Part shown: piece after piece, positions 31,667-35,070 of the stretch
Numbering within the stretch: the stretch's first letter is position 1
How the letters are laid out: each line of letters opens with the position of its first letter
Assembly (NCBI GenBank): GCA_012516065.1
Contig: JAAYXD010000222.1
Span: forward strand, 1 to 35,390
Length of the DNA stretch: 35,390 nucleotides
Origin: Clostridiaceae bacterium
GTDB taxonomy: Bacteria > Bacillota > Clostridia > DSM-8532
Direction of reading: 5' to 3'
The notes under the pieces: model-generated
Seen by the model: only the letters and a program-made list of their open reading frames with translations
What the model was told of the DNA's origin: nothing
Database searches by the model: none
Made by a program: the position numbers and the translations under genes

Positions 31667-31918
31667 TAAACTATTTTATTGCAACAGCCGATAATTATAG
31701 AGGTTATCCCTTTACGGGAAACGGGTTGTAAGCCCAGGTAAAGCGACGATACCGGACGGAGCCTGATATTGGAAAGACGAAAGCCTGTCCGGAGCGGAAC
31801 AAAGCAGCGCTGTTTAACGTCAAAACGCAGGCGCATTGTGTCTAAAATGCCTGGTATTACTGAATATTACGGTACATTGTTATAAAGTTACAATTTGTTT
31901 ACACATATACAGGCGTTG
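31667..31918. other. GC-rich structured intergenic region, candidate non-coding RNA
   Basis: Between dusB and the S-layer gene promoter, 31690-31855 is distinctly GC-richer than its AT-rich surroundings and contains several successive pairings: CCC/GGG (31708-31718 region), GGGTT/AGCCC (31723-31735), GGTA/TACC (31737-31753), CCGGAC/GTCCGG (31752-31757 with 31787-31792), and a bulged CAG-GCATT hairpin (31828-31853). No protein frame with a ribosome site covers it. I do not recognise an RNA family. It could be a separate RNA or the remnant of a leader. Confidence 0.35.
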
Positions 31919-31947
31919 TTGACGCCCCTATTCCTCAATGATATAAT
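31919..31947 (+). promoter_or_regulatory. Sigma-A promoter of the S-layer-type gene
   Basis: TTGACG (31919-31924) and a perfect TATAAT (31942-31947) are separated by 17 bp. Transcription from here gives a leader of about 135 nt, long enough for the pseudoknot-like structure at 32002-32062. Confidence 0.75.
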
Positions 31948-32001
31948 TACTTTGAAATTCATGATAAACGGCCACGTTTATCTTGAATTTATAGAGCAAA
32001 C

Positions 32002-32062
32002 AAAGCGGGTTATTTAAAGGAAGCAGGATAACCCTGCTTTGCAAAATCAATCGTCTGCTTCC
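32002..32062 (+). promoter_or_regulatory. Pseudoknot-like leader structure before the SLH gene
   Basis: Stem 1 pairs 32002-32013 with 32028-32040, with one unpaired position. Its loop contains GGAAGCAG (32019-32026), which is perfectly complementary to CTGCTTCC (32055-32062), giving an H-type pseudoknot. A competing local hairpin pairs AAGCAGG (32021-32027) with CCTGCTT (32033-32039). The element ends 13 bp before the GGGAGGA ribosome site. It may control translation or protect the mRNA end. Confidence 0.55.
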
Positions 32063-32090
32063 ATAAATTTCAAAAGGGAGGATTTTAAAC

Positions 32091-35021
32091 ATGAGAAGTC
32101 TTAAAAAGCTTTTAGCGGTAATCATGACGGTTGCTATGATTGCATCAATCATGGTTCCTGCGCTTGCGGCTGATTATGATGATGATGCCCAAAAGCTTTA
32201 CAAACTCGGCCTGTTTAAAGGAACCTCAGGGTCTTCATACCAGCCTGATCTCGATGCTACGCTGATCAGGGAAACCGGTTTGGCTCTGATGATCCGTGCA
32301 ATGGGTCTTGAGGAAGAAGTTTTGGCAATGTCTGACGCAGAAGTCAACGAACAGCTTGCAAAAGTCGTTGATGCCAGTGACATTGCTGATTGGGCAAGAC
32401 CTTACGTAGCATATGCCGTAAAGAACGGTCTTACCAAAGGTATTGACGCTTCCGTTGCCCCGAACATTAAGTTTGGTGCGAAGCTTGATCTCAGCGGTAG
32501 GGAATTCATCGGCTTTATGCTGTATGCAATGGGTTACACCAATGTAGGTTGGGACGATTTTCTTGACAAAGCTGCCGAAATAGGTATGCTTTCTGCCGGT
32601 GAAGCTGTTAAATTCGGAACAATGAACCCGATTAACAGAGACAGTGCTGTAGGCATACTGGCAAAATCAATGCACGGAATAACTGCTGCAGGAATCACAC
32701 TGGGGCAGGCACTGGTTGAAGCCGGTGTTGTTGATGCGGATGCTATGGCAGAAGCCGGATACTTTACACCAACAGCTACTCCTACACCTACACCTGCTGT
32801 ACTGACTGCTACGGCAAGTACCGACAATCTTATTCAGATATACGTAGTATACAGCCAGGAAGTAGATAAGGATTCTGCGGAAGATCTGGACAACTATGAA
32901 ATTGATGATGTAGATATCGTATCTGCAGAGCTTCAGGAAGACGGTGTTACCGTTGTATTAACACTTGATAGCAAACAGGCTCAACAGAGCAAGGTTGATC
33001 TGGTTATTAATGATGTTAAAGATACAGCCGGCACCGAAATAGCTACCGATTATACCATTAAGGATATCGAATTCCTTGATATGATCATTCCTTCAATAGA
33101 GGAAGTAAAAGTTGTTGGTAATGACACAGTCAAGGTCGTATTCTCAGAACCGATGGATCCGGCAACATTAACAGTAAGGGGTAACTATGAAGTAAAGAGC
33201 TCCAAAACTCTTTATGTAAAACAGGCAGTTCCTCAGAAGAATAATACTGAAGTTTTGGTTGAAATGTATGCAAAACTTCCTGAGGGACAGATAACCTTCA
33301 AAGTAAAGAGCGATGTTAAAGACTTTGCAGGATTTGGCGTTGTTGCCGATGCGTTCACTCTCGATGTTGTTCCGGATGAAGAGAAACCTGTAGTAATCGG
33401 TTATGAAAAAGCTTCCCAGGATGAAGTAACTCTTATATGGAATGAAGACATCGAAGTTAAAGACGGTGCTAAAGCTAACTTCTATCATACGAACTACAAG
33501 AACACGATAGATGCTAACCTGACAGCATCGGATATCGATGGCAACAAGATGACACTGAAATTCACAAACAACCCGCTGCCTCAGGGAACGGCTTACGTAT
33601 ATGTTTTGGCTAAGGCAGTAAATGATTTGTGGGATAACGAAAATGATCAGCAAATGGTTCAGATCGAAGTAGCGGTTGACGAAATCCCGCCTGAAGTCGA
33701 CGAGATAAAAGTTAAGGCAGAAGACGAGATTGAAATCACATTTACGGAAAATCTCGACGCCGATACGGCAGAAGAAGAAGACAACTATACGATTCTTGAT
33801 GATGAGGGCGATGAAATCAAGGATATTATCTCCGATGTTACCCTCAGCGGCAAGAAAGTAACAATTACCTTCGTTGATAAACTGGCTGGCGATTACTCAA
33901 TCGTTATTGAGAACGTCAAAGACAAGGCCGGCAATAAGATAGCCAAAGTTACGGTACCGTTCACCGTCGGCGACAAGACGGCTCCGGATCCTGGTGAATT
34001 TAAAGTGACTGTTTACAATCCGGGTGAAGAAGGTCAGATGCTGAAGGTTGATTTCTTTGACAAGATGGCAACCGAAGGCAAATATTCAGTACTCGATGTT
34101 GAAAAATACGTTATTAGAAGAGGATCCACCGATTACAGACTTGAAGACATAGACGGTGTAAAAATTGAAATATCTGAAGATGGAAAATCTGTTGAAATTA
34201 CCATTCCTTCAGATGATGACGTTGATGATCCGGCCAAGGATGACTATCTGAACATTAATACTGCTACCGATAAGCTTGTTATCGCACGCGTGGCTGACGC
34301 AGCAGGCAATAAGATGGAAGCCCTTTATACTGACCCGATAGACATTGATCTTAGCGATGAAATCGGAATTGCATCTGCAGAAGCAACCGCGCTCGATACT
34401 GTCAAAGTAAAATTTGATGGTAAGCTTGATAAGTTTGAGGTAGAAGATCTTGCAATTACAACCGGCTCGACGTATGTTGCGTCCCAGAAAGTTGGTATTG
34501 GAGCGGTTGAAGTAGGCCTTGACGATGGCAAGACCGTTGTAACCTTCACGCTGAGCGAAGATCTTGATCCCGAGTACGATAGCGGTGACTTGTATGTACA
34601 CGTAATAAGCGATGCATCGGAAGACGCATATGGAGCAAAAATTAAGAACGGTGACAAAAAAGCAATAGACGATAAGATTGCTCCTACAGTAGCCGAAAAC
34701 GCATACGAGAAACCTGATATCGTATTCGCGAACGGTACAACCGACAGCACTATTACAATTACGTTCAGCGAAGAACTGAAGACTAATACTGACGGTGCTA
34801 ATTACGAATATTATAAGTTTGACCTGATTATTAGAGACAAAGATGGAAAACAGCTGAAGGCCGATAAGTATACGGTTTCTGTCAGCGGTGATCAGTTGAT
34901 AGTTACTATACTCAACGTAAACAATTTGAAAGACTACTCAATCCAGTCAGTTGACAGTCCTGCTTATATCGTAGACAAGAATGACAACGCGATTACAAAA
35001 TTCGCTAGAGTCAGGAACTAG
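32091..35021 (+). CDS. Large acidic SLH-domain surface protein with Ig-like repeats
   Basis: This 976-residue exported protein has a signal peptide (1-26, cleaved after PALA) and divergent SLH repeats at about 30-220 (LYKLGLFKGTSGSSYQPD, GAKLDLSGREFIGFML). A Thr/Pro linker PTATPTPTP near 226 leads to some seven or more Ig-like or SbsA-type beta domains with recurring phrases such as VKVVFSEPMDPATL and ITFTENLDADTAEEEDNYTI. It is strongly acidic and nearly cysteine-free, as S-layer proteins often are. GGGAGGATTTTAAAC leads into ATG 32091. It has a strong promoter, a long structured leader and its own terminator. It could be the main S-layer protein or a paralogue. Confidence 0.88.
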   Translation: MRSLKKLLAVIMTVAMIASIMVPALAADYDDDAQKLYKLGLFKGTSGSSYQPDLDATLIRETGLALMIRAMGLEEEVLAMSDAEVNEQLAKVVDASDIADWARPYVAYAVKNGLTKGIDASVAPNIKFGAKLDLSGREFIGFMLYAMGYTNVGWDDFLDKAAEIGMLSAGEAVKFGTMNPINRDSAVGILAKSMHGITAAGITLGQALVEAGVVDADAMAEAGYFTPTATPTPTPAVLTATASTDNLIQIYVVYSQEVDKDSAEDLDNYEIDDVDIVSAELQEDGVTVVLTLDSKQAQQSKVDLVINDVKDTAGTEIATDYTIKDIEFLDMIIPSIEEVKVVGNDTVKVVFSEPMDPATLTVRGNYEVKSSKTLYVKQAVPQKNNTEVLVEMYAKLPEGQITFKVKSDVKDFAGFGVVADAFTLDVVPDEEKPVVIGYEKASQDEVTLIWNEDIEVKDGAKANFYHTNYKNTIDANLTASDIDGNKMTLKFTNNPLPQGTAYVYVLAKAVNDLWDNENDQQMVQIEVAVDEIPPEVDEIKVKAEDEIEITFTENLDADTAEEEDNYTILDDEGDEIKDIISDVTLSGKKVTITFVDKLAGDYSIVIENVKDKAGNKIAKVTVPFTVGDKTAPDPGEFKVTVYNPGEEGQMLKVDFFDKMATEGKYSVLDVEKYVIRRGSTDYRLEDIDGVKIEISEDGKSVEITIPSDDDVDDPAKDDYLNINTATDKLVIARVADAAGNKMEALYTDPIDIDLSDEIGIASAEATALDTVKVKFDGKLDKFEVEDLAITTGSTYVASQKVGIGAVEVGLDDGKTVVTFTLSEDLDPEYDSGDLYVHVISDASEDAYGAKIKNGDKKAIDDKIAPTVAENAYEKPDIVFANGTTDSTITITFSEELKTNTDGANYEYYKFDLIIRDKDGKQLKADKYTVSVSGDQLIVTILNVNNLKDYSIQSVDSPAYIVDKNDNAITKFARVRN

Positions 35022-35039
35022 TTAAAACTGTCTGATCAG

Positions 35040-35070
35040 AACCGCCCCGCTTTTGTGGGGCGGTTTTTTT
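35040..35070 (+). terminator. Terminator of the S-layer-type gene
   Basis: AACCGCCCC (35040-35048) pairs perfectly with GGGGCGGTT (35057-35065) and is followed by seven Ts (35064-35070). Confidence 0.9.

Follow-up and report, generated by a model that had tools for sequence, protein, structure and literature searches.

The leader of the S-layer gene in the window (the whole 35,390-nucleotide stretch of clostridial DNA that was analysed) carries an H-type pseudoknot, which is established as far as comparison between related sequences can establish it. The pseudoknot is part of a larger fixed cassette that runs from an upstream box through an extended -10 promoter, a 5′ hairpin, the pseudoknot itself, an A-rich stretch and a strong Shine-Dalgarno (SD) sequence to the start of a signal peptide. 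Cells make few proteins in larger amounts than those of the S-layer.

All features described here lie on the forward strand. The 5′ strand of the first helix (S1) occupies 32001–32013, of which 32002–32013 reads AAAGCGGGTTAT, and its 3′ strand occupies 32028–32041, of which 32028–32040 reads ATAACCC-t-GCTTT with T32035 bulged; the outer C-G pair, 32001/32041, is read directly from the sequence and lengthens the helix from 12 to 13 bp. The second helix (S2) consists of eight perfect pairs, also read directly, between 32019–32026 (GGAAGCAG) and 32055–32062 (CTGCTTCC), and joins the loop of the first hairpin to downstream sequence, which is the defining H-type arrangement. Both strands of S1 and both strands of S2 were assigned by direct reading together with covariation. 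Loop L3 (32042–32054), which spans S1, is A-rich and varies in sequence and length in relatives. The pseudoknot ends about 13 nt upstream of the SD (GGGAGG, 32076–32081), which follows an A-rich spacer and lies 9 nt upstream of the ATG. The gene (32091–35021) encodes an S-layer-type protein of 976 amino acids with SLH and Big_5 domains; since a strong intrinsic terminator follows it (35038–35067, a 13-pair stem and then a T run), we take the transcript to be monocistronic.

Conservation and covariation of the two helices

The nested fold of 31980–32080 has a modest advantage over shuffled sequences (z = -1.76), a value that, coming from a single sequence, proves little, and it is therefore conservation in relatives that decides. 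Within the family to which the window belongs, DNA and protein searches located the leader 5′ of S-layer homologues, and 17 of these leaders were aligned without use of structure (alignment A1). Covariance models R1, R2 and R3 were built from S1 and sequence; S2 was not entered as pairs, so the alignment carries no model-imposed fit to S2 pairing. R1 gave strong matches in 17 of the 32 genomes of the window's family, R2 matched 12 of 14 genomes in family f54 and 39 of 58 in the order around it, and R3, run on a sample of 391 genomes from the class, matched 34. The final alignment (A4) holds 59 copies from 14 families, every one of which directly precedes an S-layer-type open reading frame that starts like M[RK][NS]L[KR]K... 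and has a signal peptide. Eight further copies inspected outside A4 have the same layout, which brings the related genes with this leader to more than 60.

Across 398 genomes of the phylum, centred on the window's relatives, R3 recognised no further pseudoknot copy; it returned the window and two marginal matches, one of them false and the other an SLH-like gene without S2. Marginal scores have to be read with gene context, because weak matches such as L137 (E = 7e-4), which belongs to an oxidoreductase gene without the promoter box, proved false. Others discarded were L075, a weaker R1 match with a plain hairpin only, a weak second match in L085 that did not survive checking, and L125, a weak match inside another gene region. 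A scan of the genome collection with the S-layer protein found one relative only, and the mature proteins fall to about 25% identity or to no detectable match where the leader is still present. The leader is not essential, since even in the window's family some genomes carry S-layer homologues that lack it.

In A1, 96.5% of the S1 and S2 cells are standard pairs, and eight pairs have changed on both sides (six in S1, two in S2). Shuffles averaged 93.0% and never reached the observed value, and shifting the partner by one to three columns brought pairing below 50%. In A4, 90.8% of cells are paired and 21 of the 24 pairs show double changes, which none of 500 shuffles matched; for S2 alone the figures are 85.6% and 8 of 10 pairs, again with no shuffle in 500 equalling the pairing or the double changes. 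Because relatedness inflates such column shuffles, we also used a tree-aware null in which the 3′ columns were re-evolved along a tree. Double changes fall on 27 branches for the whole structure, against a null mean of 5.5 (0 of 400 runs reach it), and on five for S2 alone, against 1.0 (1 of 400); the pairing percentage of S2 is attained by 6 of 400 null runs.

The weakest point of the statistics is that a generic R-scape-like G-test over all pairs, which had too little power, found no individually significant pair in S2. This result, and the fact that much of S2 is invariant within single families, is what one would expect if chance or sequence conservation by shared ancestry had produced the pairing with no RNA structure under selection. 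We find that explanation scarcely credible given the tree-aware excess of double changes, and the strands themselves argue against it. S2 duplexes in the 59 leaders average -14.8 kcal/mol, compared with -6.1 kcal/mol for shuffled S2 strands, and exchanging partners between species costs a mean of 3.4 kcal/mol. Two distant copies lie outside A4: instead of GGAAGCAG/CTGCTTCC, L138 has GAAAGAGGG/CCCTCTTTC and L139 has GAAAGAGAT/ATCTCTTTC, wholly different strands that are nevertheless perfectly complementary. If the pseudoknot is charged an assumed penalty of 7 kcal/mol, it is still more stable than any nested alternative in 33 of the 59 leaders, and at 9.6 kcal/mol in 12.

The first-pass annotation had described three helices in this leader, two of them able to coexist as a pseudoknot, and had named covariation in relatives as a check. 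All three pairings exist in the window, S1 being one pair longer than described, and S1 and S2 are conserved with covariation in the leader of what is indeed an S-layer gene.

We note some variants. In family f26 (L111, L117, L119, L121 and L123), a second stem-loop is inserted in the 5′ hairpin and the leader is about 162 nt long. In L035 (genome G023), a downstream paralogous S-layer-like gene has a leader with GGAAGCAG and TTTGCTTC near each other, perhaps a reduced hairpin version of S2. The first codons of the gene (ATG AGA AAT CTC AAA AAG, 32091–32117) are conserved at third positions too (CTC in 48 of 59, AAT in 44 of 59), which possibly serves translation initiation.

The promoter region and the 5′ hairpin

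The upstream box (31888–31904) is a direct repeat, TTACA-N6-TTACA, with an 11-bp period, and a weaker third repeat lies 11 bp further upstream. Its TTTACA is placed exactly 21 bp 5′ of TTGAC in all 59 leaders, the window's among them, the bases of TTACA and TTTACA reaching 2.0 bits. Of the 31 genomes searched, 10 contain the combined pattern of box and TTGAC, each of them a single time, and the reversed control gave no match; the listed matches adjoin the leader in the window's genome and in the other nine. The box looks like a site for an OmpR-family (PhoP/WalR-type) response regulator, and S-layer transcription may therefore answer to a two-component system. The promoter (31919–31947) comprises TTGACG, a 17-bp spacer and TATAAT (11 of 12 consensus matches), with an extended -10 TG at 31939–31940; the TG is present in all 59 leaders and the spacer length in 58. 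In L126 (genome G624, same phylum, another class), an SLH-like gene is preceded by this box with unchanged spacing, and its leader has a hairpin but no recognisable S2, a layout that suggests the box is older or more widespread than the pseudoknot.

Transcription is predicted to start at about 31954, which would place a stable hairpin (31955–31990) only a few nucleotides from the 5′ end of the transcript, as in known stabilising leaders. In the window this hairpin has an energy of -16.2 kcal/mol (z = -5.2), and the mean z over the 59 leaders is -3.9. The shorter hairpins, which were aligned, are paired in 92.8% of cells, compared with 87.5% after shuffling, and have 26 double-change cells against 5.4. 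The segment 31690–31845, downstream of which lies the S-layer promoter and on whose other side lies the dus gene, is also rich in GC and in hairpins; it has no Rfam match and folds no better than shuffled sequence (z = -0.81).

What the leader may do

Among the 59 leaders we found no invariant unpaired base in the loops (L1 is 3–13 nt and L3 7–19 nt long, the latter 51% A), which fits a structural rather than a sensing element. Strong conservation is seen instead at the top of S1 (GGNTTA/TAACC) and at the ends of S2, and GGAGG is nearly invariant after the A-rich stretch 3′ of S2. The same leaders have no conserved anti-SD helix or terminator state, anti-SD pairing being at background, and a switch in which the S2 3′ strand would pair with the SD was rejected because this pairing is no stronger than that of shuffled strands. 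In an energy model that is itself nested, the gain in SD accessibility with the pseudoknot is modest, the probability that the SD is unpaired averaging 0.51 with it and 0.36 without it over the 59 leaders (0.47 and 0.17 in the window).

The first-pass annotation had also pointed to a local hairpin that excludes both pseudoknot helices and had envisaged a switch among the three. The hairpin (AAGCAGG, 32021–32027, with CCTGCTT, 32033–32039) does have seven pairs in the window and is worth -11.7 kcal/mol there as a duplex, but that value is an outlier against the 59 leaders. In the 17 close relatives only 67.8% of its cells are paired and there are no double changes; two of the seven pairs, at columns 38/48 and 40/46, are each broken in 15 sequences and are essentially confined to the window. 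The equivalent pairing of the loop with S1 averages -6.35 kcal/mol in the 59 leaders, which is the background set by shuffled S2 strands (-6.1 kcal/mol). With the competing hairpin unconserved and the family-wide pairing at the shuffled level, the switch is not a conserved property of these leaders, and as a conserved mechanism it is refuted; we consider a three-state switch very improbable.

We suggest, with somewhat better than even confidence, that the leader works as a constitutive protector and booster, which shields the mRNA and keeps the SD open. The 5′ hairpin would deny a free end to nucleases that depend on one, and the pseudoknot, with S1 stacked on S2, would form a second barrier against 5′-to-3′ decay. 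As S1 and S2 would both be occupied in the knot, flanking sequence would be kept from pairing with the SD. A protein that ranks with the most abundant in the cell would then be made from an mRNA that lasts long and is heavily translated. We infer this role from the position of the 5′ hairpin at the end where decay starts, the loops devoid of invariant bases, the lack of a conserved anti-SD or terminator in the 59 leaders, the freer SD and the precedents discussed below. A stabiliser had been one of the options in the first-pass annotation, beside a feedback or metabolite-controlled switch; it is the option that appears to fit best, strengthened by the 5′ hairpin, which that annotation had not included. 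What does not fit is that the top of S1 and the ends of S2 are conserved beyond the need of a mere barrier, which hints at a bound partner.

Such a partner is central to the main rival, protein-mediated feedback, in which the S-layer precursor, a ribosomal protein or another RNA-binding protein would bind the pseudoknot and block or allow translation, matching supply to cell-surface area. The exclusive link of the leader to S-layer genes, its strongly conserved positions and the short distance from its end to the SD would all suit this explanation, and in Thermus slpA is repressed by its own product through its own leader. However, neither a conserved alternative fold nor a conserved SD-occluding helix was found, and a changing binder would have to recognise a constant site, given that the leader is constant while the proteins have diverged so far; we rate feedback as possible, at roughly one chance in four. 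Metabolite control, for instance by c-di-GMP as suggested for the "SLH motif" of 2019, is less likely than feedback, and we think it improbable. H-type pseudoknots are a common fold among small aptamers, and a riboswitch candidate that precedes SLH genes in Clostridia and elsewhere has been published (PMC6429828). Against this, neither the sequence nor the length of L1 and L3 is constant, and they offer no conserved ligand pocket of invariant unpaired bases, there is no conserved expression platform with two exclusive states (terminator or anti-SD) in the 59 leaders, a single type of gene is controlled and no riboswitch model in Rfam matches.

More tentatively, box, 5′ hairpin and pseudoknot may together represent an undescribed family of leader RNAs that is the standard S-layer control region across a large part of the Clostridia, the knot being either a sensor of S-layer supply that is read by a protein or a structural block to 5′-to-3′ decay, similar in principle to the one that exonuclease-resistant RNAs of viruses form. 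A compact leader that has been kept while the proteins diverged beyond recognition provides a testable handle on mRNA longevity and translation, and a well-defined pseudoknot with which to ask whether leader structure halts RNase J-type decay. The clostridia concerned include cellulose degraders of biotechnological interest, and the leader would also serve as an expression element.

Comparison with known leader RNAs

Neither the window nor any of six relatives scanned against Rfam matched a family. The preQ1, SAM-II and rpsO-type elements share with this leader an H-type topology near the SD; unlike them, it has no conserved loop bases, does not sequester the SD, precedes one type of gene and is without an Rfam match. 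For the role that we favour, the closest precedents are 5′ stem-loops that stabilise the ompA, papA and aprE mRNAs, going by the titles cited in PMC3997798. This leader shares with those mRNAs a hairpin that stands a few bases from the 5′ end, which is predicted here, and a strong ribosome site downstream of the hairpin; in contrast to them, the hairpin is followed here by a conserved H-type pseudoknot, and stabilisation is our proposal. The untranslated slpA leader of Lactobacillus acidophilus (Boot 1996, cited in PMC6482533) was likewise proposed to fold and to stabilise an abundant S-layer transcript. That leader, which we liken to ours by its description, belongs to the Bacilli and is described as one large stem-loop, with no pseudoknot reported in that account.

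The nearest published element is the SLH motif of Stav et al. (2019), a riboswitch candidate with 80 examples from groups that include Clostridia, Synergistaceae and Negativicutes; about 60% of them are found ahead of SLH genes and the others precede genes whose function is unknown (PMC6429828). What it has in common with the leader described here is RNA structure and, in Clostridia, a place ahead of genes for SLH-domain proteins; the passages that present it mention no pseudoknot, promoter box or 5′ hairpin, all of which this leader has. On a comparison of descriptions, the two may be the same RNA, may overlap or may be separate. If they are the same, the present analysis adds to the published description a pseudoknot, a hairpin at the 5′ end, a promoter box and, in the Clostridia, an exclusive link to one kind of gene.
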